33,063 bases of DNA from Myxococcota bacterium (GTDB lineage Bacteria; Myxococcota_A; UBA796; CAJQPC01). Below, piece by piece: positions 7,020 to 31,984 of the stretch. Numbering within the stretch: the stretch's first letter is position 1; every line of letters begins with the position of its first letter. The translations under genes and the position numbers were made by a program. The notes below the pieces were generated by a model that saw nothing but the letters and a program-made list of their open reading frames with translations, ran no database searches and was not told the origin of the DNA. The stretch lies in contig JAKLKD010000065.1 in assembly GCA_023150845.1 (NCBI GenBank), positions 1 through 33,063 on the forward strand, in the 5' to 3' direction.

Positions 7020-9971
7020 CTAGGGGCTGAGCCGCGCCGCCCAGGCCGAGACCGCCGCCGGGTGCCCAGACAAGAGCGCCTGGATCGCGGCGGTGGCGGG
7101 ATCTTGGGCCTCGGGCGCCTCGTCGCTGGCGCTCGCGCTGGTGTCGTCGTTCACCTCAGCCCAGCCCCCGTCGAGGCCAAGCGCCGCGGCCCAGGCCTCC
7201 GTCGCCGCCGGGGCCGCGCGCAGAAGGCCGAAGGTGGCCAGCTCCTCGGGGGTGCGGGCGTCGGTCTTTGGCGCCCGGCCGGTCGGCCCAGGGGTAGGCG
7301 CAGGCCGCGCCGCCTCCCAGGGGGGCGTCCAGGCGTCGAGCTCGGCGAGGCTGCGTGGGGTGGACTGCACGACCTCTCGCATCAAAGCGGGGAGGATCGT
7401 GCCCGCCACGGGGCGTAAGGAGTCAAGCAGGCCCGGCAGCCAGGGCAAGAGCAGGGCCTCGGGCAGCTCCATGAACGCGCGGCTCAGCAGCTCCGCGGCC
7501 AAGGCCGAGACCAGGGGCGTGAAGCTCAAGGCCAAGAGCAGGCTTCCTAAGGCGCCGGGCAAGGCCGAGAGGCTCATGGGGTTGTCCATGAGCGCGTTGA
7601 ACTCGGCGCGCACCTCATCACCGCGCTTGAGCTCCAAGGTCCACTCCGCGGCCCACAAGAGCCCGAGCTTGCCCGGGTCGGTGGTGAGCGGCGCGGCCTG
7701 GCGCACGGCGATGATCACCTGGCTCCGCTGGCAGCCCAAAGAGAGCGCGAGGCTCTCCAAGGAGAAGACGAAGGCCAACATGCCCGCGAGCTGCTCAGGG
7801 CTCGTGCCCCGGTCGGCGAAGCTCTGGGGCAAGAGCGAGGCGTAGTGCTGGTAACCCGTGGCCACGAAGTCCCCGAGCCAGCGCGGCATGCCCTCGGGCC
7901 GGGCGCGCAGGTGGTGCACGAGGCGCCGCACCCGCTCAAAGAGCTCCCGGGCGTTCGCGGCGCTCAGCTCCAAGCGCAGCAGCTCCACGGCCCGCTCACC
8001 GAGCTCTTCAGAGAGCCGGTCCCGCTCAGCGAACAAGAGCGCGTCTTCAGCGAGGCCCAGGACCGTCGCCGCCGTCGCGCTCGGCGCGAAAGCCCGCTCG
8101 CGGAGCCGCCGCTCCAGCACCTGCTCGACGGTGATGCCCTCATACGCGAGCTCGATGAGATCGCGCAGGGCGGGGCCGTGGAGCTTGATGTCCCAGCTCT
8201 CTTGCACCCGGGGCACGCCGAGTCGGCGCTCGCCCATGACCGGCCGCACGGCGTCGCTCGACGGGAGGAGCGCGCGCAGGCGCCAGAGCAGGTCGGAGAC
8301 GGGGAGGAGCTTCGGGCCCTCCTTCCGCAGGTCCATCAAGGCGCGGGTGACCGTAGACTTGCCGGGGATGACGCCGACGGGGGCGAGGCGGTCGTAGACG
8401 TCGCGGACCAAGGGCGGCAGGGTGGAGTAGCCCACCTTGCCGACCCGGTCGCCGCCCATGACCATGCCGCAGAGGTGGCGCACGCTGCGCCGCATCGTCG
8501 GGTCGCCCTTGTCGAGGCAGGTCTCGGCGGCGTCGGCGAAGTCGAAGGGGCTCGGGTGCAGGCGCCCGCGCATCCGGGCGAGCAGCAGCGAGGTCTGGTA
8601 GATCGCGATGGCGTCGGCGGTGGACGCCATGTAGTGGTTCTCCCGGGCCTTGGCGACGACCCCGGTGCACCACTGGAGGAGCTGCTCGTGGTCCTCGGCC
8701 TGGAGACTCGGCGGCCGGGAGAGCACTGAAGACGCGCCCCCTTCAGTGGTGACCTCTTCAGGCGGCGGCGCGGCGGCCTTCTTCGTCTTGGCCTTGGGCT
8801 TCGGCGCCTCCACCTCGGCGCCCTCGGCGGCCTCCCCCTTGGCGGCCTTCGCCGCCTTGGGCAGAGGCATCGCCTTGAGGTTGAAGGCCTTGAGCGCCTT
8901 CTCCCAGCTCTGCTCGGCGACGGAGATGCTGCCCCGGGCGAGGCCAAACTGCCGCTCGATGGCGGAGTAAGACGAGGGGATGAAGCCGTACTGCCAGGGC
9001 GTGTTGGTGCGGGCGGGGATGTCCCAGCGGGGGTCGTCGGGCTGGCCGAGGCGCCCCGTGCCCCACTCCGGCACGTCCGAGGCGGCGTGGGCGGCGCCGC
9101 AGATGTACATCGCGTCCTTCGGCGAGATGCCCTTCGCGACGAGGTGGTCCTTCATGCGGGTCCACATGAAGCGCTCGCGCAGGCGGTCGCCCTCGACGTG
9201 CTCGGCGCGGCTGCCGAGGCGGCGGATGAGCGCCCCGACGAGCACCATCACCTGCCGCCAGGTGTTGTAGTCGGCGCCGATGGTCGGCTCATCGACGTAC
9301 ACGCTCCACCACTCGGAGAAGGTCGAGGCCCGGCTGTGCTCCAGCAGGCTCTCCAAGAACACCGGGAAGGTGGGCACGAGGCTGCCCAGCTCCACACCTA
9401 AGGCGCCGCCGTGCAGCCGGGCGTTCTCGTCGTCATCCGCGGGGCCGCTCGGGCCCGTCGGCGAGGACTCCTGGTTCGGCGACCACTGGAAGACGTGGTC
9501 CGAGGAGCGGTCCACGAAGACCAGCTCGACCTCGGGGTTGGCGAGGCCGTAACAGATCGCCTGGTACTCCGCGGAGAACGGCGTCATCGGCATCACCAAG
9601 GACAGCGGCAGCCAGCGCGGCGGGAAGGCCTCGCTCTCCCCAGCGAAGGCCTGCATCGCCACCGGGGGCACACAGGAGGCCAGCTCCGGCAACAACGCCT
9701 GGAGATCCTCGCAGGCCTCGATGAAGATGACCTTCGGGGCGAAGCGCTGGAGCCTGCGGATGAGCTGCACCGCGCAGGAGGGGCTGTGGTGGGCGACGGG
9801 GAAGATCTGCAGGGGCTCCCCCAGCACCCGGGCCACGTCGTCGGAGAGCCCGGCGAGCAAGGCGCTGAGGTGCTGGGCGTCGGGGGCCAGGTCGGCGGCG
9901 GCGCCGAGGAGCTGGGCCCGGAGCGCGGCGAAGGACTCGTCCTCGAGGACGCTGACGGTGGGGGCCATCAT
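7020..9971 (-). CDS. DUF5682 (YehM-like) protein, last gene of the MoxR-vWA operon
   Basis: The 983-residue product begins at tandem ATG codons (9971 or 9968) just after the stop of the ATPase gene, with GGTGAG as ribosome site. The N-terminal ~340 residues hold DUF5682 hallmarks: Val-Ala-His-His-Ser-Pro (His61-His62), an Ile-Glu-Ala-Cys strand (Glu85), Phe-Ser-Ala-Glu-Tyr-Gln-Ala-Ile (Glu135), a Phe-Val-Asp-Arg strand (Asp154) and Tyr-Ile-Cys-Gly-Ala-Ala-His (His295). A low-complexity Ala/Lys/Pro linker covers about 372-405. The C-terminal ~570 residues are mostly helical. No signal peptide or membrane span is seen, so it is probably cytoplasmic. E. coli YehM, in the yehLMPQ cluster, is the nearest known counterpart and is shorter (about 760 residues). 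Function is unknown; the family always deserves reading with its MoxR/vWA partners. Confidence 0.88.
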   Translation of the reverse strand: MMAPTVSVLEDESFAALRAQLLGAAADLAPDAQHLSALLAGLSDDVARVLGEPLQIFPVAHHSPSCAVQLIRRLQRFAPKVIFIEACEDLQALLPELASCVPPVAMQAFAGESEAFPPRWLPLSLVMPMTPFSAEYQAICYGLANPEVELVFVDRSSDHVFQWSPNQESSPTGPSGPADDDENARLHGGALGVELGSLVPTFPVFLESLLEHSRASTFSEWWSVYVDEPTIGADYNTWRQVMVLVGALIRRLGSRAEHVEGDRLRERFMWTRMKDHLVAKGISPKDAMYICGAAHAASDVPEWGTGRLGQPDDPRWDIPARTNTPWQYGFIPSSYSAIERQFGLARGSISVAEQSWEKALKAFNLKAMPLPKAAKAAKGEAAEGAEVEAPKPKAKTKKAAAPPPEEVTTEGGASSVLSRPPSLQAEDHEQLLQWCTGVVAKARENHYMASTADAIAIYQTSLLLARMRGRLHPSPFDFADAAETCLDKGDPTMRRSVRHLCGMVMGGDRVGKVGYSTLPPLVRDVYDRLAPVGVIPGKSTVTRALMDLRKEGPKLLPVSDLLWRLRALLPSSDAVRPVMGERRLGVPRVQESWDIKLHGPALRDLIELAYEGITVEQVLERRLRERAFAPSATAATVLGLAEDALLFAERDRLSEELGERAVELLRLELSAANARELFERVRRLVHHLRARPEGMPRWLGDFVATGYQHYASLLPQSFADRGTSPEQLAGMLAFVFSLESLALSLGCQRSQVIIAVRQAAPLTTDPGKLGLLWAAEWTLELKRGDEVRAEFNALMDNPMSLSALPGALGSLLLALSFTPLVSALAAELLSRAFMELPEALLLPWLPGLLDSLRPVAGTILPALMREVVQSTPRSLAELDAWTPPWEAARPAPTPGPTGRAPKTDARTPEELATFGLLRAAPAATEAWAAALGLDGGWAEVNDDTSASASDEAPEAQDPATAAIQALLSGHPAAVSAWAARLSP

Positions 9972-9972
9972 C

Positions 9973-11100
9973 TCACCCGAGCTGCTTGAGGGCCTCTTTG
10001 CCACCCTCCAAGAAGCCGACCCAGTCACCCTTCTCTTTGCTGGCGTGCTTGTCGACGACGCTGTGCCAGAAGCGGTTCATGACGCTCACGTCCTCGGGGA
10101 TGCGGCGCACGAGGGTGCCGACGACCGACGCCGCGACGAGCTCCGGGCGCACGACGGCGTCGCCGAAGAAGCGACTGTGCAGCACGGCGTCCTCCAGCAC
10201 GCCGATCTGCTCGGCGGTCGAGAGCGAGGACTCCAGGCGGCCGTCGTCGGTGTTCGCCGCGGCGGAGGCCTGGCGCAGATCCTCAAAGGTGCGCAGCAGC
10301 ACGTCGAGGAGCGAGGGCGGCACGTCGATCTCAAACCCGGCGCGGGCGAGCAGATCTTTGACGCGGAAGAGCACAATCTTCTTCTCGGCGGCCCGGGACT
10401 GCACGATGGGGATCTGCACGAAGTTGAAGCGGCGCTTGAGCGCGGAGGAGAGGTCGTTCACCCCGCGGTCGCGGCTGTTCGCCGTGGCGATGAGGTTGAA
10501 GCCGGGCCGGGCGAAGACGGTGTTGTCGTCGCGAAGCTCGGGGATGGAGATGTACTTCTCAGACAGGATCGAGATCAGCGCGTCCTGCACGTCCGAGGTG
10601 CAGCGGGTGAGCTCCTCAAACCGGCCCATCTCGCCGCGCTGCATGGCGGTCATGATGGGCGAGGGGATCATCGACTCCTTGGACTGCCCGGCGGCGATGA
10701 CCATGGCGACGTTCCAGGAGTACTTGATCTGGTCTTCCGTGGTGCCCGCGGTGCCCTGCACGACGTAGGTGCTGTTGGAGCAGACCGCCGCCGAGAGCAG
10801 CTCGGCGAGCCAGCTCTTGCCCGTGCCCGGGTCGCCGATGAGCAGCAGGCCGCGGTCCGACGCCAAGGTGACGATGGCGCGCTCGACGATGGACGCCGGG
10901 CCGAACCACTTCTGGGGGATCTCCCGGGGCAGCTTGTCTTGGGGGCTTGAGCCCAAGACGAAGGTGCGCACCATACGCGGGGTGAGGCGCCAAGAGGACG
11001 GGCGCGGGCCGGTGTCATGGGCCGCGAGGAAGGCGAGCTCCTCGGCGTAGCGGGCCTCGGCGGGGAGGCGCAGGACCTCGGACTTGGACGTGTCGCTCAT
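9973..11100 (-). CDS. MoxR-family AAA+ ATPase, YehL subfamily
   Basis: The 375-residue product carries Walker A Gly-Asp-Pro-Gly-Thr-Gly-Lys-Ser (89-96), a sensor-1 Ala-Thr-Ala-Asn strand (Asn208) and an Arg-Arg pair (223-224) in the arginine-finger region, then the helical lid. The Walker B region is atypical: Met-Gly-Arg-Phe-Glu-Glu (158-163), with Glu162-Glu163 instead of hydrophobic-Asp-Glu. The following Thr-Ser-Asp-Val-Gln-Asp-Ala-Leu-Ile-Ser helix matches the YehL subfamily. MoxR ATPases act as chaperone-like remodelers, normally with a vWA partner, which here is the gene immediately upstream. Ribosome site CGGAG. The gap to the vWA gene is 21 bases and the DUF5682 start adjoins its stop, so they are very likely cotranscribed. 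Confidence 0.93.
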   Translation of the reverse strand: MSDTSKSEVLRLPAEARYAEELAFLAAHDTGPRPSSWRLTPRMVRTFVLGSSPQDKLPREIPQKWFGPASIVERAIVTLASDRGLLLIGDPGTGKSWLAELLSAAVCSNSTYVVQGTAGTTEDQIKYSWNVAMVIAAGQSKESMIPSPIMTAMQRGEMGRFEELTRCTSDVQDALISILSEKYISIPELRDDNTVFARPGFNLIATANSRDRGVNDLSSALKRRFNFVQIPIVQSRAAEKKIVLFRVKDLLARAGFEIDVPPSLLDVLLRTFEDLRQASAAANTDDGRLESSLSTAEQIGVLEDAVLHSRFFGDAVVRPELVAASVVGTLVRRIPEDVSVMNRFWHSVVDKHASKEKGDWVGFLEGGKEALKQLG

Positions 11101-11121
11101 CGTGGGCTCCGGTCGAAAGGG

Positions 11122-12672
11122 TCAGGGCAGCGCGGCGCGCAGCTCTCGGATGAGGGTCTTGAGGCTGCCCGACATCAGGGGGATGCCGTGCGTCTTGAAC
11201 TGCTGGCGGAAGTAAGGGTTCACGTTGAAGTAGCCCCCGCTGGACACGGATCCGACGGGGATGAAGGTGACGCCGGCCGCGACGACGTTCTTGATCATCG
11301 CGAAGAGCGGCTGGTCGTTGTTGAACTCGTAGAAGTCGGAGATCCACACCATGACGGTGTCCTTGGGGTCCTGGATCTTCGCCTGGGCGACGAGCATGGC
11401 CTTGGGGCCGTCGTTCCCGCCGCCGAGGTTCGTGCGCAGCAGGACCTCCAGCGGGTCGTTGATCCAGGGGCTCAGGTCGATGACCTGGGTGTCGAAGACC
11501 ACGAGGTGGCCGTCCACCTTCGGCAAAGCCGCGAAGATCGACGCCAGGATGGTGCAGTTGACCATCGCGCTCACCATCGAGCCCGACTGGTCCACCACGA
11601 CGATGAGCCGGGTGTTGGAGGTGCGCGCCGAGCCCCGGCGGTAGTAGAGCCGGTTCACCATGAGGCGGCGGCGCTCGGGGTCCCAGTTGATGAGGTTCTT
11701 GTTGATCGGGCGCTTTAGATCGAGGTTCCTGAACACCCGCTTCGGCGGAACACGAGGATCCACCTTCGCTTTGGAGGCGCTCTTGACCTGGCGCTTGAGC
11801 ACGTCGGCGAGGTCGTTCACGTACTTCTTGATCAGCATCTTCGCGTTCGTGAGGGCCTCACCGCTGAGGTTCTTCTTGTCGCGGAGGAGCTGCTCGACGA
11901 GGTCCATCGACGGCGTGAGCTTCTCGGCCAAGGCGCGGTCCTTGAGGACCTCTCGCAAGGCCATGCGATTGATGAGGCTCTTCTCCAGGTGGGAGAGGGC
12001 GTTCTTGACCTCGGGCTCCGACATGAGGCCGCGGCCCGCCCGGGCCTCGTTCACGGCGAAGTTGAGGTCGTCGTCGTGAATCTCGGGGGCGACGCCCGTG
12101 GCGTCGGTGTCTTGGGCGTCGGGGCCATAACCGCCGCCGCTTCCGCCGCCGCCGCCTCCGTCCCCTCGCAGCCCGCCCCGGGGGTAACCGAGGGCCTGCT
12201 CAAAGCGGCTGACGTCCTGGAGCCAGTCGTTGTACTGCTTCGCCGAGACCTGGGACGAGCCCATGCCCGGCGAGAACACGTTCTGGAGCATCTTCCCGAA
12301 GAGCATCATCGCCCGGAGCTGCTCCCGCGCGCCGTGCCCGTCCTGGCCCAGGCTGGAGGCGAAGCTCGTGGCCTGGGCGCTCGGCGCCTCGGCGTCTTCA
12401 CCGGGCTCGCCGTCTTCACCCTCCTCGGCGGGCTGGGGCGGGTTCAGCACCTGCTCCAGGCGCTCGTAGTCGTCGCGCAGGCTCTTGTCGCGGCGCAAGA
12501 GGTCGTTCACCGAGGGGCGACGGTCGAGCACCAGGGGCGGCACGTCTACCTTCCCGGCGATCTCCAAGGCGAGCTTCGACAGCTCCTTCGGGGGGCCGTC
12601 TTCGCTCAGGGCCGAGGCCAAGGACCACCAGGAGAGCACCTGGCGGCGGTTCTTCGCGGCGCGCTCGTCCAT
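11122..12672 (-). CDS. vWA-domain protein (YehP-like) with intact MIDAS
   Basis: The 516-residue product has a mainly helical N-terminal region, an acidic Glu/Asp/Pro-rich stretch (about 80-98), a glycine-rich linker (about 166-183) and a second helical region (about 200-300). The C-terminal vWA domain has all metal-site elements: Asp361-x-Ser363-x-Ser365, a Thr near 414 in Leu-Arg-Thr-Asn-Leu-Gly-Gly, and Asp446 in Trp-Ile-Ser-Asp-Phe. It therefore should bind Mg2+ and a protein ligand, as CoxE- and YehP-type partners of MoxR ATPases do. It is longer than YehP (about 380 residues), mainly from the extra N-terminal and glycine-rich parts. No secretion signal. It lies 11 bases after the unknown gene and 21 before the ATPase gene. 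Confidence 0.92.
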   Translation of the reverse strand: MDERAAKNRRQVLSWWSLASALSEDGPPKELSKLALEIAGKVDVPPLVLDRRPSVNDLLRRDKSLRDDYERLEQVLNPPQPAEEGEDGEPGEDAEAPSAQATSFASSLGQDGHGAREQLRAMMLFGKMLQNVFSPGMGSSQVSAKQYNDWLQDVSRFEQALGYPRGGLRGDGGGGGGSGGGYGPDAQDTDATGVAPEIHDDDLNFAVNEARAGRGLMSEPEVKNALSHLEKSLINRMALREVLKDRALAEKLTPSMDLVEQLLRDKKNLSGEALTNAKMLIKKYVNDLADVLKRQVKSASKAKVDPRVPPKRVFRNLDLKRPINKNLINWDPERRRLMVNRLYYRRGSARTSNTRLIVVVDQSGSMVSAMVNCTILASIFAALPKVDGHLVVFDTQVIDLSPWINDPLEVLLRTNLGGGNDGPKAMLVAQAKIQDPKDTVMVWISDFYEFNNDQPLFAMIKNVVAAGVTFIPVGSVSSGGYFNVNPYFRQQFKTHGIPLMSGSLKTLIRELRAALP

Positions 12673-12683
12673 CTCGGCTCCTC

Positions 12684-14042
12684 TCAGGACTTCTTGCGGA
12701 GCAGCTTGCCGGCCCGCTCGTTGAGGTTCGCGAGCGTGCTGGACTTCGTCTTCGCGGCGCTGGCGAGGTCCTCCCAGGGGCCCGAGGGCGCCTTCGCGCC
12801 TTTGGCCTGGGCGGCGAGGGGCTGGAAGGACCAGGACCCGCCGTCCCAGCGCACGAGGCCCCAGAGGCGGTCGGACTTCGCCACCGTCACCGCGTCGAGG
12901 CCCTGGAGGGGGCTCATGCGGTCGAAGGTGATGGGCAGGTGCCCGTCACCGACGGCCACGGAGAGCACACCTTCGACGCGGGTGGGGGCGCCCTCCACAA
13001 AGAGCGGCGCGGCGAGCTGCACGGGGTGCCGGTCGGTCGGCGCCGCCTGGGGCCAAGACTTGAGCGCCATGGCGGCCGCGGCGACCTGGGCGGCGTCAAA
13101 GGGCTGGCCAGGCGCCACCTTGGTGAGGACCAGATCCCCCGTCGTGGCGATCGAGCCGGACACGACGAGGGTGCGGCGATCGGCGGTCTCGCGGAGCGCG
13201 GTCTCGTAGCCCCGCATCACGGCCCACCACGACTCCTCCCCGGCCAAGGCGTCCACACGCCAGCCGGAGAGCGTCGCCCGGACCACCTCCCGTTTGCTGC
13301 CGTGGTCCAGCACGCCCCAGAGCACGGCGCTGACCATGTTCCGGTGGTGCTGGGGCTCGATCATGAACACCGAGAGCTTGGCGCCATCAACCGCCTGCAG
13401 GCTCGGCCGGCTCTGCTTGGGCAGACAGGCCAGAAGCGCCCGGGACCAGAGGTCGGCCCAGCGGGCGCGGGGGGCGTCGGTGAGCGCGGCCAAGGGGAGC
13501 TTGGTGAGCAGCTCTTGGTGGAAGCCGGTGAGGAGCGTCGCCGGGCGCAGCACGGCGGGGGAGATGAGCTGCAGCTCCCCCAAAGACGCGTCGAAGGCGG
13601 TGACGGCGCCGGGCTCGATCTGCCCGAGGCCCGCGAGACCGAGCTCCACGAGCCACTGGCGGGCGTTGCTGAGCAGGCCGTGGGCCTCGGCGGGGAGGTC
13701 CACCGCCGTCGTGGCCGGGACCTCTTGTGCGGGGCGGCCCAGGAGCGCGTCGAGCTGGGCGGCCAAGGCGTCGGCGCGGGCGCCCTGCATGGCCTCGCGG
13801 GCGGCGGCGAGGCCGACCATCGCCGCCTCTTGGGGCGGGCCGGAGCAGGCGGCGTTGACCGACTCCGACACGAGGGGGCCGAGGGGGCTGCCCTCAAAGG
13901 CCCGGGCGAGGGCGCGCAGGGTGTCTTTTTGGGCGTCGGCGAGGCGGCCCAGGCCGCCTAAGAGGAGCTCATCGAGGGCGGTCAGCGCGGCGCTGGCCTC
14001 GTCAAAGCCCGGCGGCGCCGACCGCAGAGGGGTGGGGAGCAT
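12684..14042 (-). CDS. Uncharacterised operon protein between the SWIM and vWA genes
   Basis: I do not recognise this 452-residue protein. The N-terminal ~290 residues are predicted helical and Ala/Leu-rich. The C-terminal part contains a beta-rich stretch (around Arg-Thr-Leu-Val-Val-Ser-Gly-Ser-Ile) and a region resembling a small beta domain (Ala-Pro-Leu-Phe-Val-Glu-Gly-Ala). It ends in a basic Lys/Arg tail. A distinctive central motif is Met-Ile-Glu-Pro-Gln-His-His-Arg-Asn-Met. No signal peptide, membrane span or nucleotide-binding motif is seen. An AGGAG ribosome site precedes the ATG. Gaps of 11 bases on either side place it firmly in the operon. It could correspond to the non-SWIM part of YehQ-like proteins, split off as its own gene; that is only a guess. 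Confidence 0.85.
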   Translation of the reverse strand: MLPTPLRSAPPGFDEASAALTALDELLLGGLGRLADAQKDTLRALARAFEGSPLGPLVSESVNAACSGPPQEAAMVGLAAAREAMQGARADALAAQLDALLGRPAQEVPATTAVDLPAEAHGLLSNARQWLVELGLAGLGQIEPGAVTAFDASLGELQLISPAVLRPATLLTGFHQELLTKLPLAALTDAPRARWADLWSRALLACLPKQSRPSLQAVDGAKLSVFMIEPQHHRNMVSAVLWGVLDHGSKREVVRATLSGWRVDALAGEESWWAVMRGYETALRETADRRTLVVSGSIATTGDLVLTKVAPGQPFDAAQVAAAAMALKSWPQAAPTDRHPVQLAAPLFVEGAPTRVEGVLSVAVGDGHLPITFDRMSPLQGLDAVTVAKSDRLWGLVRWDGGSWSFQPLAAQAKGAKAPSGPWEDLASAAKTKSSTLANLNERAGKLLRKKS

Positions 14043-14053
14043 CCGGTCTCCTG

Positions 14054-14536
14054 TCAGCCGCTGATGAACCAGCTCAGCTCGGGGATGGGTTGGTTGGAGC
14101 AGGGCATCTCGGTGTAGCGCAGGTCGTTCAAGAACCGCGCGAACACCTCGGAGGCGGGCTCCTTCGTCTCGCTGCCCCGGGCGGCGGCCATGAGGCTGCG
14201 GGCGTTGCCGGTGACCGAGGCGTCGAGTCCGAGCGCGGCGGCGAGGCCGTCGGCGCCGAAGACCTTCACGGCCTCCCCGACCATCTCGACGATGTGTTTG
14301 CAGCCGCCGCCGCCGAGCCCGCCGCAGCGCCGGTTGTTGTTGGTGCTGCAGTAGAAGTTGCCAGTCCCCGCCTCGTAGAAGGCGCAGTAGACACGCTCGA
14401 TGTCGGAGCCGCTGGAGATGATCCCTTGGATTCGTTTGCCGCGCAGCTCAACGAAGGGCACGTCCTTCACCTTGCGGCCTTTGGGCGAAGGGCGGGGCGC
14501 GGCGATGACGCTGCGCCGCGCGAGGGAGTCGGACAT
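14054..14536 (-). CDS. Small SWIM-like zinc-finger protein, first gene of the MoxR-vWA operon
   Basis: The ATG at 14536 has an AGGAG site and is preferred over a longer reading that lacks one; the product has 160 residues. Residues about 30-60 form the beta strands usual before a SWIM finger (Lys-Arg-Ile-Gln-Gly-Ile-Ile-Ser-Ser-Gly-Ser). The metal ligands are Cys63, Cys71, Cys79 and His81, a Cys-x7-Cys-x7-Cys-x-His pattern instead of the canonical Cys-x-Cys-xn-Cys-x-His. The Cys-Lys-His-Ile ending is standard for SWIM. SWIM fingers bind nucleic acid or protein. E. coli YehQ, in the related cluster, has one within a much larger protein; here it stands alone. It is separated from the next gene by 11 bases. 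Confidence 0.8.
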   Translation of the reverse strand: MSDSLARRSVIAAPRPSPKGRKVKDVPFVELRGKRIQGIISSGSDIERVYCAFYEAGTGNFYCSTNNNRRCGGLGGGGCKHIVEMVGEAVKVFGADGLAAALGLDASVTGNARSLMAAARGSETKEPASEVFARFLNDLRYTEMPCSNQPIPELSWFISG

Positions 14537-14566
14537 CCTGGGCTCCTGATTTGACCCCGAGACTTT

Positions 14567-14595
14567 ATTCAATCGTCCGGGTGGTCGCAGGCCAA
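14567..14595 (-). promoter_or_regulatory. Candidate promoter of the five-gene MoxR-vWA-SWIM-DUF5682 operon
   Basis: On the minus strand TTGGCC (14595-14590) and TTGAAT (14572-14567) are 17 bases apart, each matching four of six consensus positions, 30 bases upstream of the SWIM gene ATG. It lies in the 116-base gap shared with the divergent protoporphyrinogen oxidase gene. A second minus-strand TTGACA at 14615-14610 has no matching -10. Moderate-to-weak evidence. Confidence 0.35.
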
Positions 14596-14652
14596 AGAGT
14601 GTCCACCCCTGTCAATGAGGCGATGTGGGCGGATTCAGGATAGGTGGCGCCT

Positions 14653-17070: not shown

Positions 17071-18717
17071 TCAGCCCTCGCAGTCACCCATGAGCGCGTA
17101 GTCCACCTCGATGGTGGAGCCGCCCTCGGGGACGTACCCATCGGCGAAGTCAACGGTGTTGGTGGCGTAGTTGTACGACCAGCCCGTGACCACGACGATG
17201 CCGTCCACCTTGACCTCGATGGACTCCTCGACGGGGGTGTCAGTGAGCTCGAAGGAGGTGAGGTCGGCGGCGGAGTTCTCGGCGAGGACCTCCATGCTGG
17301 AGCCGAAGTCGGCGGCGCAGATGGAGAGGAAGGTGCCGCCCGTGGCCAAGGTGGCCTCGTAGAAGCCGGTGTAGGGCTCGTTGCCGCCGCAGCCCGTCGG
17401 GTAGTCGCCGCCGATGGCGTGCAGGACCACGTCGTCGGGGTCGGCCTTCATGCTCTGGAAGAGCGAGATGTAGTAGGTGTAGGGGTTGATCGACTGCTCA
17501 CGCTCGTCGGACACACCCACCAGGGCGAGGGTGGCGTCCTCGCGGTAGAAGCCCTCGTTGCAGCCGCCGGAGCCGATGTTGGAGGACTTGAGCGCGGCCT
17601 CCAGCAAGGTGAAGGCCATCTCGGTGTAGCTGCCCATCTTGGGGCAGGACGAGCCGCCGTAGTCGAGGCAGGCCATGGTCGAGAAGATCGACTGCTGGTC
17701 GGACTCGGACATCGTGTTGTCGATGTAGGTGTCGGAGCCGAGCATACAGCCGTTGTCGGCGACGACGGCGGCGACGTGGTAGTCGGCGTCCATCGCGGCG
17801 AGGGTAGACACGAAGGTCGTGAAGTTCGCGCCGACGTTCGCGACGTCGTCGTACATCGAACAGGACCAGTCGATGGCGAAGATGATGTCCGTGGAGCCGT
17901 TGATGGGCTGCTCAAAGACGTCCACCGTCTCGCCGTAGAGCGCGCCGACGCCCTTCTGGGTGGCCATGACCGTGGGGGCGGCCGGGTCGTTCGAGGCGAC
18001 GGTGACGTACTGAACGTCGCTGTACTCATCGAGGGGGGCGTAATCGACCCACACGTCCAGGGCGGCGCCGGGGGCGATGGTCCAGGGCAGGGGGCCGTTG
18101 ACGTCCTCAGCGGCGTCAAAGACGAGGTCCGTCGAGGCGGTGTTCGCCGACAAGGACTCGACGATGAGGTCGTCGTTGCCGATGTTGGAGATGGTCAAGG
18201 GCTGGAGCTTCTCGCAGCCGATGTACATCGTCCCGAAGTCGTAGGTGATCGGGTCGATGTCGATGACCGGCGCGATGCCCTCGCCGATGAGCTCAACCTC
18301 AGCGACGGGCTCATCGGGGTCGTCGGAGGAGATGAGCAGGAAGGTGGTGTCGTTCGCCGAGGTCACCGGGCGGTAGGTGACGCTGAGCGTGGTCGAGGCG
18401 TCGGGCTGGACGAGCACGGAGCCGACGGCGCCGATCTCGAAGGGCGCGTCCTCATCCTCAAGCTCGATGGAGTAGATGTGCAGGTCCGCCGTGCCGACGT
18501 TGCCGATGGTGACGGTCTGGGAGGACGAGGCCTCCTCGGTGACCGACAAGGAGCCGAAGCTGACCGAGGTGGGGCTGGGCTCGATGTCCGGCACGCCCTT
18601 CTCGTCGATCTCATCGACGCCGTCGTTCGTCTTCTCGAGATCGTAGTCAGGGGTGCAGCCGAAGAGCGCCAGGGCCACGACGGGCATCGAGAGCGAAGGG
18701 CGGTTGAACGAGCGCAT
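17071..18717 (-). CDS. Choice-of-anchor-D / vWA-like lipoprotein
   Basis: The ATG at 18717 has an AAGGAG site; the 548-residue product begins with a lipoprotein signal ending Leu-Phe-Gly-Cys (Cys21). Two Ig-like choice-of-anchor-D (ASPM/SPD-2/Hydin-type) repeats occupy about 45-145 and 152-260, each with the pattern Phe-Gly-x-(Leu/Met)-x-(Val/Ile) and Ile-(Gly/Ser)-Asn-(Val/Ile)-Gly. A vWA-like domain follows with Asp283-Trp-Ser285-Cys-Ser287 as a MIDAS start, and several Cys that may form disulfides. It is probably anchored in the outer membrane and binds a partner or surface; the exact role is unknown. Similar lipoproteins are numerous in Myxococcota. The gene is divergent from the starch operon. 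Confidence 0.88.
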   Translation of the reverse strand: MRSFNRPSLSMPVVALALFGCTPDYDLEKTNDGVDEIDEKGVPDIEPSPTSVSFGSLSVTEEASSSQTVTIGNVGTADLHIYSIELEDEDAPFEIGAVGSVLVQPDASTTLSVTYRPVTSANDTTFLLISSDDPDEPVAEVELIGEGIAPVIDIDPITYDFGTMYIGCEKLQPLTISNIGNDDLIVESLSANTASTDLVFDAAEDVNGPLPWTIAPGAALDVWVDYAPLDEYSDVQYVTVASNDPAAPTVMATQKGVGALYGETVDVFEQPINGSTDIIFAIDWSCSMYDDVANVGANFTTFVSTLAAMDADYHVAAVVADNGCMLGSDTYIDNTMSESDQQSIFSTMACLDYGGSSCPKMGSYTEMAFTLLEAALKSSNIGSGGCNEGFYREDATLALVGVSDEREQSINPYTYYISLFQSMKADPDDVVLHAIGGDYPTGCGGNEPYTGFYEATLATGGTFLSICAADFGSSMEVLAENSAADLTSFELTDTPVEESIEVKVDGIVVVTGWSYNYATNTVDFADGYVPEGGSTIEVDYALMGDCEG

Positions 18718-19004
18718 TGGAACTCCTTCACGAGGTGGCGTCAGGGGGGGCACGCCGACGAACGTTGGGATTATAGACCGAAGAGAGGGGGGAGCGTAGC
18801 AGGTTTTACGGCGAGCGGCCCGCCACGGCAGCCGCATCTTGAGGCCCCACTACGGCGGAGCCCGGCGCGGTGTGACGACAAGTTCTTGACGTTCTACGCG
18901 GCGCGTGTGCTCGGCGCGTCGCTCATCGGTCCATGGCCCGCAAGATCCCCGGCGCCACTAGGCTATTCTGCGAGTTCTGCCACCCACCCAGAGGAGGATC
19001 CCCC
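18718..19004. other. Divergent intergenic region between the vWA lipoprotein and the starch operon
   Basis: This 287-base gap holds a minus-strand TATAAT (18775-18770), 52 bases upstream of the lipoprotein ATG, without a clear -35. A plus-strand TTGACG near 18892 has no -10 at normal spacing. The plus gene has a strong GAGGAGG ribosome site near 18992. No RNA gene or strong inverted repeat was seen. Confidence 0.5.
18770..18775 (-). promoter_or_regulatory. Perfect TATAAT -10 element upstream of the vWA lipoprotein
   Basis: The minus-strand hexamer is an exact sigma-70 -10 match, notable in such GC-rich DNA, at a suitable 52 bases from the start codon. No matching -35 is seen. Confidence 0.4.
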
Positions 19005-26934: not shown

Positions 26935-28989
26935 TCAGGGGCACATCACGGTGAGGTCATCGACATAGTGGGTGTTGCTGGAGCCGCCCGTGGCCCCGGT
27001 CACGCCGACACGAAGCTCGCTGTAGGGGAAGGAGCTGAGCGTGTGGGTGAACAGGGTGCTGCCGTCGAGCGCCACGGTGATGGTGTTGCCGGACTTGGTC
27101 ATCTCCAAGAAGAACTCCCCGGCGTCCTCGATGGTGGGGATGGCCGAGCTGGTCGCGTAGACGCCGAAGCCCGCCGTGTCCACGAGCGCGATGTGGTTGC
27201 CGTCGGGGTCCCAGCCGCCGTTGTAGTAGGTGTCGACCTCGACGGCGTAGCCGGTGAGGTTGAGCACGCCGAGGCCGCCGCCCGCGCTGCCGATGGCCGT
27301 GGCGGCGGTGGCGGGGTCGAGCAGGGCCATGGCGAGGCCGTCGGCGCCTGTGCCGGTGCCGCCGCCGGTTGAGAAGTTGAAGGAGATGTAGAGATCGTCA
27401 GCGGGCACGGTGTCGCTCAAGAGCGCCGTAGACACCTTGCCCACCACGGCCTCGGTGAGGGAGAGGTAGCCGTTGCCGCTTGCGCTCGCCCAGGCGCCGT
27501 CGCCGTTCACCGTGAGGCCCGTAGGCAGGCCCGAGTCGAAGTCGCTCTCCAAGTAGACGATCTGGTCGGTGACGCCGTCGCAGTCGTTGTCGGTGTCGTC
27601 GCAGGCCTCGGTGGCGTCGGGGTTCACCGCGGCGTCGGTGTCGTCGCAGTCGTCGCTGTCGGTGGTGTGCGTGGCGCTCGGCGCCTCGCAGGCGCGGGTG
27701 CGGTCGCTGAGATCACCGAAGCCGTCGCCGTCGTCGTCGGCGTACCAGCTCGTGCGTGAGGAGGGGAGCAGGCTGGAGTCGTCGTCGTCGATGAGGCTGT
27801 CGCAGTCGTTGTCGATTGTGTCGCAGATCTCCGTGGCGGCGGGGCTCACGGCGGCGTCGCTGTCGTCGCAGTCCGTGGCGCTCGCCGAGAAGCCGCTCGG
27901 CGTGTCGCAGGCTTGGGTGGTGACGTCGGGGTCCCCGTAGCTGTCGCTGTCACCATCGGCGTACCAGGTCGAGGCCGAGCCGAGGTCCAGGGAGCTGTCG
28001 TCATCGTCGATGAGGCTGTCGCAGTCGTTGTCGAGGTCGTCGCAGATCTCGGTGGCGGCGGGGCTCACGGCGGCGTCGCCGTCGTCGCAGTCCGCCGCGT
28101 TGGACACCGAGCCCGCCGGGGTGGCGCAGCTCAGGGTGGGGCGGTCGGCGTCGCCGTAACCATCGGCGTCGGCGTCGACGTAGGAGGTGGCGCCGGTGCT
28201 GAGGTCTACGCTGTCGTCGTCGTCGTCGATGAGGCTGTCGCAGTCGTTGTCGCGGCTGTCGCAGATCTCCTGAGCGGCGGGGTTGACCGCTACGTCGGCG
28301 TCGTCGCAGTCTGTCGCATCCGTCGAGTAGCCCTCGGGCACCTCACAGGCCTCGACGGGGTAGTCGGCGTCCCCATAGCCGTCGCTGTCGGTGTCGGCGT
28401 AGGAGGTGGTCGTCACGCCCTCGTCGATGGCGCCGTCGCAGTTGTTGTCGCGCTCGTCGCAGATCTCGACGGCGTCGGGGTTCACCCCAGCGTCGCCGTC
28501 GTCACTCTCCTGGCAGGCGGCGAAGCCGTCGCCGTCGTTGTCGGCGTAGCCCACGGAGCCGTCGCAGTTGTAGTCGTTGGGGTCGTCACAGGCGGTCTCG
28601 GCGGCGCTGGGGTTGTAGGCGGGGTCGGCGTCGTCGCAGTCGCCGCCGAGGGTGACGTAGCCCTCCGAGGGCTCACAGGCCTCCGCGGCGGTCGAGTCAT
28701 CACCGTAGCCGTCGTTGTCGGCGTCGGCGTAGACCACGGTCGTCACGTCCTCGTCCACCGCGCCGTCGCAGTTGTTGTCTTGGCCGTCGCAGAGCTCAGC
28801 GGCGTCGGGGTTCACCGCGGCGTTGTCGTCGTCGCAGTCCTCGTCCTCGGGGAAGCCGTCGGCGTCTTGATCCGTCGGCGCGTCGCTGTCCGTCGTGGGC
28901 ACGCCGGTCTCCTCAGGCGGGCTCGTGTCGTCCCCTTTGCAGGCCATGAGGGTGAGGCAGGTGAGCGTGGCGAGGAGGGCGTTTCGCAT
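26935..28989 (-). CDS. MopE-repeat lipoprotein with C-terminal L-type lectin-like domain (paralogue 1)
   Basis: The 684-residue product starts with a lipoprotein signal ending Leu-Met-Ala-Cys. Seven blocks of about 50-70 residues (about 40-475) each have Asp-x-Asp-x-Asp-Gly-type loops and an Asp-Cys-Asp-Asp...Cys-Asp...Asp-Asn-(Asn/Asp)-Cys-Asp core, the MopE-type putative metal-binding motif. Block 3 has lost the first Cys (Glu-Ser-Asp-Asp). The C-terminal ~200 residues resemble an L-type lectin (Gly-Ala-Asp-Gly-Leu-Ala; Ala-Val-Glu-Val-Asp-Thr-Tyr; Asn-His-Ile-Ala-Leu). MopE in Methylococcus binds copper; here Ca2+ or copper binding and glycan adhesion are inferences. GAAGGA ribosome site. 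A close paralogue lies immediately upstream. Confidence 0.92.
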   Translation of the reverse strand: MRNALLATLTCLTLMACKGDDTSPPEETGVPTTDSDAPTDQDADGFPEDEDCDDDNAAVNPDAAELCDGQDNNCDGAVDEDVTTVVYADADNDGYGDDSTAAEACEPSEGYVTLGGDCDDADPAYNPSAAETACDDPNDYNCDGSVGYADNDGDGFAACQESDDGDAGVNPDAVEICDERDNNCDGAIDEGVTTTSYADTDSDGYGDADYPVEACEVPEGYSTDATDCDDADVAVNPAAQEICDSRDNDCDSLIDDDDDSVDLSTGATSYVDADADGYGDADRPTLSCATPAGSVSNAADCDDGDAAVSPAATEICDDLDNDCDSLIDDDDSSLDLGSASTWYADGDSDSYGDPDVTTQACDTPSGFSASATDCDDSDAAVSPAATEICDTIDNDCDSLIDDDDSSLLPSSRTSWYADDDGDGFGDLSDRTRACEAPSATHTTDSDDCDDTDAAVNPDATEACDDTDNDCDGVTDQIVYLESDFDSGLPTGLTVNGDGAWASASGNGYLSLTEAVVGKVSTALLSDTVPADDLYISFNFSTGGGTGTGADGLAMALLDPATAATAIGSAGGGLGVLNLTGYAVEVDTYYNGGWDPDGNHIALVDTAGFGVYATSSAIPTIEDAGEFFLEMTKSGNTITVALDGSTLFTHTLSSFPYSELRVGVTGATGGSSNTHYVDDLTVMCP
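27560..28872 (-). repeat. Seven tandem MopE-type Asp/Cys repeat units within the 26935-28989 gene
   Basis: The codons for Asp-Cys-Asp-Asp and Asp-Asn-Asp-Cys-Asp recur as near-identical GTCGTCGCAGTC-like runs. They are coding repeats, not CRISPR: unit lengths vary and there are no unique spacers. Confidence 0.9.
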
Positions 28990-29350
28990 CGGAAGGATCC
29001 TTCGTGGAGCGGTTCTTGAGGCGGGGGCCAGTGTAGACGGGATCTGAGGCCTCGGGGCCCTTTGGCTGGCCGCGCGGCGCCGAGGGCCACGGCGGAGGGG
29101 TGTCGTCGTGGCGGGGCTGTGGGGCTGACCGGGCGGAAAGATTACAGCAAAATCGTTGTTATCGGCATTGCCTCAATCTGGCGCCGTCGAGGGTGCCACA
29201 AATGAGGCCTGAGAAAAATCGCAGAGTTCGCCGCATAGGAAGGTGAATAATCGGCTCGACACGCATCAGGTCCTCACACGGCATTCAGCGCGCAGACAAA
29301 GCAACACTAACGTTGCCTGCTTCTAGACTACCGCAACCCCCACCACCCGC
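28990..29350. other. Intergenic region between the two MopE-like genes, with an AT-richer segment
   Basis: This 361-base gap would carry the promoter of paralogue 1 and the end of the paralogue 2 transcript. The half nearest paralogue 2 (about 29140-29340) is clearly AT-richer than its surroundings. A minus-strand GCAAC...GTTGC hairpin (29301-29316) followed by TTTG is too weak to call a terminator. No gene, tRNA or insertion sequence was recognised. Confidence 0.5.
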
Positions 29351-31408
29351 TCAAGGGCACATCACCTTGAGGTCATCAAACAGGTGGTAGTTGGTCAACC
29401 CGCCCGTTGAGGCGGACAGGGCGATCCGCACCTCGCTGTAGGGGAAGCCTGTGAGGGTGTAGGTGAACACCGTGGACCCGTCCAGGGTGACGGTGAAGTC
29501 GTCGCCGGACTTGATGAGCCCCAGCTCCCGCTCGGTGCCGTCGTCGAGGTTGGGGATGCTTGAGCTGCTCACGAAGGCCGTGAGCGTGGTCGTGTCCATG
29601 AGCGCGATGTGGTTGTTGTCGGGGTCTTTGGGGTAGTTCGTGAAGGTGTCGAGCTCGACGGCGTAGCCCGTGAGGCCGTAGAGGCCGAGGCCCTCGCCGT
29701 AGACGCCGATGGCGGTGTCGGGGGTGGTGGGGTCGAGGAGGCCCAAGGCGAGGCCGTCCGCGCCGTCGCCGCCGCCGGTGATGAAGCGGAAGGTGATCTC
29801 CAGGTCGTCGGCGGGGATGAGGTCGGTCAGGAGCGCGTCGCCGACGAGGTAGTAGTCCACAGCGGTCAGGCGCACCATGCCGTCGCTCCCGGCGCGGATC
29901 CAGGCCGCGTTGCCGTTGAGCACGATCCCCGCGGGCAGGCCGCTGTCGAAGCCGCTCTCAAAATAGACCACCTGGTCCACCACGCCGTCGCAGTCGTTGT
30001 CGAGGTCGTCGCAGTCCTCCGTCGCGCCGGGGTTCACCGCAGCGTCGCCGTCGTCGCAGTCGCTGTCATCGGCGACGGCGGCGCTCGGCGCCTCACAGGC
30101 CTGGGTGGAGGCGCTGGGGTCGCCGTAGCCGTCGGCGTCGAGGTCGTCGTACCAGAGGCTCGTCGAGGCGAGCAGGCGGCCGGGGTCGTCGTCGTCGGTG
30201 AGGCCGTCGCAGTCGTTGTCGAGGCCGTCGCAGACCTCGCTGGCCCCGGGGTAGATGGCCCGATCCCCGTCGTCGCAGTCCGTCGCGCCGCTCACAAAAC
30301 CGCTCGGCTGGACGCAGGCCGTCGCCCGGGCGCTAGGATCTCCGGCGCCGTCCCCGTCATCGTCGGCGTACCAGGCGCTCGCGCTCGCGGCGCTCAGGCT
30401 GGGGTCGTCATCGTCGCTGAGGCCGTCGCAGTCATCGTCCTCGCCGCCGTCGCAGACCTCGGTTGCGCTGGGGTTCACCTGGGCGTCGCCGTCGTCGCAG
30501 TCCTCCCCCCGCCGCACACGCCCGGCGTCGACGAGGCAGGCGGTCTCGGCGGTGGCCGGGTCGCCGTAGCTGTCGCCGTCGTCGTCGGCGTAGGAGGTTG
30601 TGGCGCTGGAGAGGTCGAGGGACGGGTCGGAGTCATCAGTGAGGCTGTCGCAGTCATTGTCGACGCTGTCGCATGTTTCAGATGCGACAGGGCTCACGCT
30701 TGCGTCGTCGTCGTCGCAGTCGGCGCTGTTCTCGACGGTGCCCGCCGGGGGAGCGCAGGTCGTGAGGGGCGCGGCGGGGTCGCCGTAACCGTCGCCGTCC
30801 TCGTCGGCGTAGACCGTGACGAGTAGGCCCTCGTCGACGGCGCCGTCGCAGTTGTTGTCGCGGTCGTCACAGGTCTCCGGCGCGCCGGGGTAGCTCGTGC
30901 TGTCGCTGTCGTCGCAGTCCTCACAGGCGGAGCGTCCGTCGCCGTCGCCGTCCGCCTGGCCCACGGAGCCGTCGCAGTTGTAGTCCTTGGGGTCCTCACA
31001 GTCGGCCTCGGGCGCGCCCGGGAAGCTCGCCGCGTCTCCGTCGTCGCAGTCTCCGGCCTCGGCGACGAAGCCCTCGGTGACCTCACAGGCCGTGACCGCG
31101 CCGCCCTCGTCGCCGTACCCGTCGCCGTCGCCGTCGGGGTAGACGAGCTGGCCCAGGCCCTCGTCGGTCGCGCCGTCGCAGTTGTTGTCTTGGCCGTCGC
31201 AGGTCTCCGTGGCGTTGGGCGAGACGTATGGATCGCCGTCGTCGCAGTCCTCCGGCGCGGGGACACCGTCACCGTCAGCGTCGAGCGGCGCTTCGCTGTC
31301 GTCGGGGGCCGGGCCGGTGTCGTCGACGACGCTCGGCGCGTCTTTGCAGGCCGCCAACAGGAGCAGGGCCGCGAGCGTCAGGGGGAACGTCAGGCGTTGG
31401 GGCATCAT
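29351..31408 (-). CDS. MopE-repeat lipoprotein with C-terminal L-type lectin-like domain (paralogue 2)
   Basis: Tandem ATG codons at 31408 and 31405 follow GAGG; the longer gives 685 residues. The lipobox is Leu-Ala-Ala-Cys (Cys21). Seven Asp/Cys MopE-type blocks span about 43-479, followed by a lectin-like domain with Gly-Ala-Asp-Gly-Leu-Ala, Ala-Val-Glu-Leu-Asp-Thr-Phe and Asn-His-Ile-Ala-Leu. Block order matches paralogue 1, including a shared odd block 2 with a Cys-x-Asp-Pro-x-Asp-Tyr-Asn-Cys-Asp-Gly-Ser-Val-Gly ending. The pair therefore arose by whole-gene duplication. Here block 3 keeps the Cys lost in paralogue 1. Surface location and metal or glycan binding are inferred. Confidence 0.92.
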   Translation of the reverse strand: MMPQRLTFPLTLAALLLLAACKDAPSVVDDTGPAPDDSEAPLDADGDGVPAPEDCDDGDPYVSPNATETCDGQDNNCDGATDEGLGQLVYPDGDGDGYGDEGGAVTACEVTEGFVAEAGDCDDGDAASFPGAPEADCEDPKDYNCDGSVGQADGDGDGRSACEDCDDSDSTSYPGAPETCDDRDNNCDGAVDEGLLVTVYADEDGDGYGDPAAPLTTCAPPAGTVENSADCDDDDASVSPVASETCDSVDNDCDSLTDDSDPSLDLSSATTSYADDDGDSYGDPATAETACLVDAGRVRRGEDCDDGDAQVNPSATEVCDGGEDDDCDGLSDDDDPSLSAASASAWYADDDGDGAGDPSARATACVQPSGFVSGATDCDDGDRAIYPGASEVCDGLDNDCDGLTDDDDPGRLLASTSLWYDDLDADGYGDPSASTQACEAPSAAVADDSDCDDGDAAVNPGATEDCDDLDNDCDGVVDQVVYFESGFDSGLPAGIVLNGNAAWIRAGSDGMVRLTAVDYYLVGDALLTDLIPADDLEITFRFITGGGDGADGLALGLLDPTTPDTAIGVYGEGLGLYGLTGYAVELDTFTNYPKDPDNNHIALMDTTTLTAFVSSSSIPNLDDGTERELGLIKSGDDFTVTLDGSTVFTYTLTGFPYSEVRIALSASTGGLTNYHLFDDLKVMCP
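29972..31282 (-). repeat. Seven tandem MopE-type Asp/Cys repeat units within the 29351-31408 gene
   Basis: Same unit design as in the neighbouring paralogue and in the same order. Variable unit length and an open reading frame throughout mark them as coding repeats. Confidence 0.9.
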
Positions 31409-31582
31409 GGACCTCGGATCGGCGATCGGGCCGTTGAGGCGGGGGTCTTGGGCGCTGGGCCACTGTCGGTCTAACATTGCGCGGCGGGGGTTCGTAGGGA
31501 GGCGCGCGACGTCGCCCGGCTCATGGGCTAAAGGGCTCGTTGCGGGTCGGTCTACCCCCGGCGCGCGAGACGGAGAGAGGTC

Positions 31583-31984
31583 ATGGATCACGCGGCGATG
31601 ATCAACTGGCTCATGGAGGAGGGTCGCGCCCACGCTACCCGCGAGGCGGAGCTGCAGGCCTGGTTTGAGGCCCGGCGCGCGGCGGGCGTCGCGCCCACCT
31701 GGGAGGATCTGGCGGTGCTCGTGGAGCACCAGCGGCGCACGCTGGACCACCAGTCCAACTTCTGCTTCGGCATGATCAGCTTCTTGGAGCAGATCGAGGA
31801 GGCCCGCATCGACGCCGCCCAGAGCGTACGCGCCGAGCTCGAGGGCAAGCTCTCGGAGCTGCTCCGCGCCCAGGTCCGCGGCGCCGTGCGCCGTCACCTC
31901 ACGGGCTTTAGCCCCGTGCGCCGCGCGGGCACCTGGCTGCGCCGGGCGGGGGAGCTGCTCTCCGGCGAGCGCCCCCCGCGCTGA
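31583..31984 (+). CDS. Small hypothetical helical protein
   Basis: The ATG at 31583 follows GGAGAGAGG. The 133-residue product is predicted almost wholly helical, with an acidic N-terminal half and a strongly basic Arg-rich C-terminal third (about 93-133). It has a single Cys and no signal peptide or membrane span. I do not recognise the family. It is divergent from MopE paralogue 2 (174-base gap with no clear promoter) and converges on the ATP-grasp gene 18 bases away, so the context gives no function. Confidence 0.75.
   Translation: MDHAAMINWLMEEGRAHATREAELQAWFEARRAAGVAPTWEDLAVLVEHQRRTLDHQSNFCFGMISFLEQIEEARIDAAQSVRAELEGKLSELLRAQVRGAVRRHLTGFSPVRRAGTWLRRAGELLSGERPPR

Follow-up and report, generated by a model that had tools for sequence, protein, structure and literature searches.

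Seven MoxR subfamilies have been named, one of which, YehL, is encoded in E. coli K-12. The open literature yielded no statement of what YehL does: yehL and yehM were found only in lists or passing mentions, and DUF5682 was not found. The window studied here is a stretch of 33,063 nucleotides (G000:C48) from a 7.1 Mb Myxococcota genome assembly of 444 contigs. In it, a minus-strand run of five adjacent genes encodes relatives of YehL, YehM and YehP together with a zinc-finger protein and a 452-aa protein, raising the question of whether this cassette is a variant of the E. coli yehLMPQ operon or a system of its own, and what such a system might do. While MoxR/vWA systems and yehLMPQ were already known, the cassette represents a cross-phylum branch with its own gene order, a new 452-aa protein family and a modified zinc finger. 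A description of the five-gene cassette was not found in the open literature, the subscription literature being outside our scope.

Organization of the locus

The run spans positions 7020-14536 of the window and encodes, 5' gene first, a SWIM-like zinc-finger protein, the 452-aa protein, a vWA protein, an AAA+ ATPase and a DUF5682-like protein (Table 1). The ATG starts at 14536, 14042, 12672, 11100 and 9971 leave intergenic gaps of 11, 11, 21 and 1 bases. A ribosome site (AGGAG or GGAG) lies ahead of each of the first four starts, and a weaker one (GGGTGAG) ahead of the DUF5682-like gene. The genes and gaps of 1-21 bases given in the first-pass annotation stand; the strong ribosome sites it names hold for the first four genes. 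The GC3 of each gene is 0.93-0.95, as expected for real genes at 70% GC. Searches against Pfam matched the ATPase (AAA_5, E 7e-38), the vWA protein (VWA_CoxE, 3e-25) and the DUF5682-like protein (DUF5682, 4e-28, two stretches, 98 bits), and the 452-aa and zinc-finger proteins matched no family in Pfam or NCBIfam. Tentatively, we read the locus as a single operon encoding a remodelling machine of MoxR type that belongs to the YehL superclade. The operon promoter should lie in the 107-bp region upstream, where a sigma-70 consensus was not found; promoter, terminator and Rfam scans gave nothing.

Table 1. Coordinates of the cassette genes and the adjoining intergenic region in the window
Feature	Coordinates	Strand	Remarks
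SWIM-like zinc-finger protein	14054..14536	-	160 aa from ATG 14536; C-x-TNNNR-x-C ... C-x-H
452-aa protein, new family	12684..14042	-	helical N half and tandem-OB-like beta C half
vWA co-chaperone, VWA_CoxE family	11122..12672	-	516 aa; MIDAS motifs
YehL-superclade MoxR AAA+ ATPase	9973..11100	-	375 aa; Walker A/B, arginines
DUF5682-like protein	7020..9971	-	983 aa from ATG 9971; upstream GTG 10028 also open
Intergenic region, 107 bp	14537..14643	.	separates the cassette from a divergent FAD oxidoreductase gene (GTG 14644, +)

A third branch of the YehL superclade

The ATPase contains the Walker A motif GDPGTGKS, a Walker B motif with E for D (RFEEL) and arginines R223/R224. The Walker A, sensor and arginine positions are conserved, and the Walker B aspartate is replaced by glutamate in every aligned branch. 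The MIDAS of the vWA protein (DQSGSM ... LGGG(N/T)D ... SDF) has an invariant DxSxS and an invariant later aspartate, with N in the window at the LGGG(T/N) position. ATPases of the cassette are 66-97% identical across phyla, versus 39-45% to YehL-type relatives, including the DUF5691-type system of the host itself. In a tree of 68 ATPases (a quick tree with SH-aLRT support only, as is the one that follows), the window-type, yeh and DUF5691-type proteins separate with support of 100, 95 and 100, and the window-type stem amounts to 1.86 changes per site. Inclusion of 17 other AAA_5 proteins as outgroup recovers a YehL superclade (99), which unites the window ATPase with YehL to the exclusion of other MoxR/AAA_5 proteins, and its window-type (93), yeh (96) and DUF5691-type (100) members. 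On these trees the superclade has three branches, matching three gene arrangements. Together with the Pfam matches and profile comparisons, they identify the ATPase, vWA and DUF5682-like proteins as true relatives of the YehL, YehP and YehM families, and for these three proteins the description of the locus as a divergent yehLMPQ-type system with its own order is upheld.

In E. coli K-12 (NC_000913.3) the order yehL-M-P-Q corresponds to AAA-DUF5682-vWA-SWIM. Like the cassette, this compact operon encodes a YehL-superclade AAA+ ATPase, a DUF5682 protein with the same motifs, a CoxE-like vWA protein and a zinc-finger protein. It differs in its order, in the absence of a 452-aa protein and in YehQ, which has 614 aa and two canonical CxC...CxH fingers, and YehL is only about 39% identical to the window ATPase. 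Other relatives carry the yeh-type order, and in some of these DUF5682 and vWA are fused (L011, L008, L014).

The DUF5691-type loci have the arrangement SWIM-DUF5691-AAA-DUF5682-vWA, as in the Methylosinus plasmid pOB3b3. The host genome has DUF5691-AAA-DUF5682-vWA on contig C330 and a SWIM gene at the edge of contig C231, which probably form one such locus. These loci share with the cassette five genes, a SWIM gene in first position, and homologous AAA, vWA and DUF5682 proteins. They differ in that vWA is last rather than third, the SWIM protein is a canonical one of 431 aa, the ATPase is 41-46% identical and of another clade, and profile comparison of DUF5691 with the 452-aa protein showed no relation. 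Because of this arrangement a fifth gene alone is not new; the 452-aa protein, which the first-pass annotation counted among the marks of a distinct version, belongs to a new family. All three branches occur together in one actinomycete, a Nonomuraea relative (G377, the genome of locus L104), whose three DUF5682 loci lie on C25, C22 and C35 (L152, L158 and L163).

Conservation and distribution

All five genes are present on one strand and in the same order in 74 of the 84 related loci examined, and several of the remaining 10 are truncated by the end of their contig. Because a few contigs are represented twice, from two collections (L028/L073, L032/L096), the independent loci are slightly fewer than 84. 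A search of 84,980 species genomes placed the best 80 ATPase loci in Actinomycetota, Cyanobacteriota, Myxococcota, Chloroflexota, Planctomycetota and Spirochaetota; these are the top of a longer list and say nothing firm about lifestyles without the cassette. The cassette thus occurs in at least six phyla and is not private to the host genome. Among the matches listed, and judged by the ATPase, the nearest named relatives are assemblies that carry the label Myxococcota or Deltaproteobacteria. Conservation of the neighbourhood, for which the first-pass annotation had proposed a survey in Myxococcota, is borne out and extends far beyond that phylum; the "distinct version" it described does have a separate branch and its own order, but is a third branch of wide occurrence and no local variant.

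The recurrence of the same genes, order and orientation in six phyla is beyond chance. In relatives of the same taxonomic order, the 452-aa gene shares contigs with the divergent DUF5682 gene, and these contigs have an identical five-gene order. Median gaps across loci are -1, 9, 13 and -4 bases (start codons chosen automatically), and such short gaps, with strict conservation in six phyla, imply one complex or pathway. A branch so fixed in its order also reveals the components that the design cannot do without. No conserved sixth gene was found among the 84 loci, the few cross-phylum neighbour clusters being generic-looking. Within the phylum of the host the cassette is patchy, the 452-aa protein being found in 18 of 377 sampled genomes.

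A few loci depart from the standard arrangement. About 2.6 kb of unrelated genes lie between vWA and AAA in L030 (5773-8349, G035), a rare break of the cassette; the zinc-finger gene is absent upstream of the 452-aa gene in L032 (1-2171, G055), where an unrelated ORF is found; and the DUF5682-like gene is in two ORFs in L031 (2155-4983, G059), through a frameshift or assembly error. In Nostoc-type cyanobacteria the AAA gene is separated from the DUF5682 gene by one or two genes for Uma2, a putative restriction endonuclease; L076 (9208-10454) has one on each strand, and L078, L080 and L085 have similar genes. The annotation of one Streptomyces plasmid labels both the zinc-finger gene and the 452-aa gene 'hypothetical protein'.

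The zinc-finger and 452-aa proteins

In 33 sequences of the zinc-finger protein, C75, TNNNR, C83, C91 and H93 are invariant (numbering of the 172-aa ORF). The ligands follow the pattern Cx7Cx(n)CxH in place of the CxCx(n)CxH of the SWIM zinc finger (PF04434), and none of the 33 members has a Pfam SWIM match. Profile comparison with the DUF5691-type SWIM protein gave a weak similarity in the expected register (P=7.5e-4), and comparison with the YehQ fingers gave no match. Judged by these motifs the protein is SWIM-like, so that of the "stand-alone SWIM protein" previously annotated the Cys3-His set is kept and the canonical spacing is not.

The 452-aa protein has no Pfam name and, by profile comparison, appears to be a new family. 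Its AlphaFold2 model (pLDDT 93.5) consists of a helical N half (about 1-205) and a beta C half (about 209-413). The best Foldseek matches were HIN, LEF-3, RPA and SSB proteins, at E 0.01 or weaker, and VIA-align placed residues 212-415 onto tandem OB proteins with Z about 5 over 150-165 residues. This weak match hints that the C half may resemble tandem OB folds, and is a hint of fold, no evidence of DNA binding.

Three other identities for these proteins were rejected. As a diverged DUF5691 (PF18944), the 452-aa protein gave profile P values of 0.42-0.52 and no Pfam hit in 35 members, though a very remote relation may exist. As the C-terminus of YehQ it gave P 0.4. The zinc-finger and 452-aa proteins as a split form of the 431-aa canonical SWIM protein gave P 0.06, rising to 0.26 with deeper profiles; a short stretch in common, RQWLxEL, had at first seemed promising, and only the zinc-finger half keeps some support.

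The DUF5682-like protein

The model of the DUF5682-like protein (pLDDT 80.8; residue numbers count from the ATG at 9968) contains an N-terminal alpha/beta domain (about 50-345) and a C-terminal helical solenoid (about 600-870). The protein belongs to DUF5682 (PF18934) with 98.5 bits against a curated cut-off of 26, in two stretches, and its N-domain aligns with those of the other branches at E=7e-22. The motifs [GP]xxHH, E, D, RExxM and G[AG]xH are conserved from the window through to YehM, though a few members vary, having for example HY or HL at the second histidine.

These motifs recall the TraB/PrgY/GumN-TIKI-EreA-ChaN proteins, which likewise have two GxxH-type motifs, a second-strand glutamate, an R[EN]xxM helix ahead of the final motif and an alpha/beta topology. 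TIKI proteins are built on a parallel-sheet core and use His/Glu catalysis, in some cases metal-dependent (PMC6254334). The topology of the DUF5682 N-domain is compatible with TraB/TIKI, with the motifs in order. A pooled N-domain profile aligned with a TraB profile built from relatives at P=4.9e-4, a modest value from shallow profiles; the alignment covers 206 columns and keeps the two histidine motifs in register. Ten unrelated and two reversed control comparisons gave none better than 0.04. The window branch departs from the superfamily in having P for G in its first motif (PxxHH) and a long helical extension. Of the 2His/2Glu set of TIKI and Ere proteins (PMC6254334), H60(H61), E84 and H294 are conserved; only a single Ere-type glutamate can be recognised, the second, next to the first histidine, being absent. 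A sequence profile search of DUF5682 against PDB gave no hits. A fold search with the whole model returned only helical-repeat proteins, none above Z 7, and since the solenoid filled the list, it does not bear on the N-domain. On motifs and alignment, the N-domain of DUF5682, including that of YehM, is likely a TraB/TIKI-like hydrolase domain, suggesting a putative hydrolase run by the MoxR/vWA pair. H60, H61, E84 and H294 are candidates for mutation that have counterparts in E. coli YehM, turning the orphan yehLMPQ operon into a testable question.

Possible function of the cassette

MoxR ATPases serve as chaperones for dedicated complexes, and in the case of RavA a vWA partner, ViaA, stimulates the ATPase (PMC3893208). 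From the gene content, order, conservation, phylogeny and ATPase and MIDAS motifs described above, we favor, tentatively and at somewhat less than even confidence, a YehL-type ATPase/vWA machine that remodels the TraB/TIKI-like domain, with the zinc-finger and OB-like proteins as its recognition part. The AAA+ protein would form a hexamer, on which the vWA protein would dock through its MIDAS and present the DUF5682-like protein. ATP-driven remodelling would then switch or mature the N-terminal hydrolase domain, with the helical solenoid as a scaffold. The zinc-finger and OB-like proteins would recognise a target or signal by binding nucleic acid or a protein partner, and would set the time or place at which the machine works. 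The biological outcome may be stress maintenance or conflict. These contacts are proposed from gene order and fusions: the DUF5682-vWA fusions of yeh-type loci argue that these two proteins touch and, by analogy with RavA-ViaA, support a vWA protein that may couple the ATPase to DUF5682. The fullest form of this proposal, a hitherto undescribed cross-phylum machine in which the YehL-type AAA+/vWA pair controls a TraB/TIKI-like hydrolase and the zinc-finger and tandem-OB proteins are nucleic-acid sensors, is unlikely as a whole; if true, it would provide the first mechanism for E. coli YehLMPQ.

CoxD-CoxE, NorQ-NorD and RavA-ViaA are the models for a housekeeping chaperone, in which the MoxR/vWA pair would insert a metal or cofactor, or assemble an enzyme elsewhere in the cell, and DUF5682 would be a non-catalytic adaptor. 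In favor of this role, the vWA domain belongs to the CoxE family, the MoxR systems investigated to date mature enzymes (PMC3893208), and the ATPase is highly conserved from phylum to phylum, as would suit a fixed client. Yet at the loci examined no phylum has a client gene conserved beside the cassette, and the conserved H/E motifs of DUF5682 suggest more than an adaptor, leaving this role on the unlikely side, if a serious contender. The reading of the cassette as an ordinary yehLMPQ operon, changed only by drift and with no separate function, is very improbable and already largely refuted: three parts are homologous to YehL, YehM and YehP, but the window-type ATPases form a separate long-stemmed clade with a different, fixed order, and branches coexist in one genome (two systems in the host and three in G377).

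In a conflict role, either anti-phage or as self-limiting immunity, foreign nucleic acid would be the signal for the SWIM-like and OB proteins, the MoxR/vWA pair would set a threshold and the hydrolase domain would be the effector. OB folds often bind ssDNA, the cassette is patchy in its phylum, and many of its named hosts are filamentous, mycelial or myxobacterial. MoxR-vWA ternary conflict systems, which also combine a MoxR ATPase and vWA with further partners, are known from multicellular bacteria (Kaur et al. 2020, PMC7159879, a paper that uses neither YehL nor SWIM as a term). Unlike these, the cassette has no VMAP, iSTAND, FtsH or beta-propeller component and no variable effector domains, its parts do not differ from host to host in the manner of those effectors, and it has no conserved neighbour. 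PADLOC gave only weak mad8/TerY/IetA matches to the ATPase and vWA domains, at chance level, and membership of a defence system by this route was rejected. We consider a conflict role quite improbable; neither it nor the metal-cofactor role, both raised in the first-pass annotation, draws direct support from this locus, and the remodelling of a putative hydrolase remains our preferred reading.

Other features of the window

Two neighbouring minus-strand proteins encoded at 26935-31897 each combine an L-type lectin-like domain with seven metal-binding motifs of MopE type. A minus-strand ORF at 17071-18837, which overlaps a plus-strand ORF of similar length, encodes ASPM-SPD-2-Hydin (ASH) and HYDIN-type Ig-like domains.
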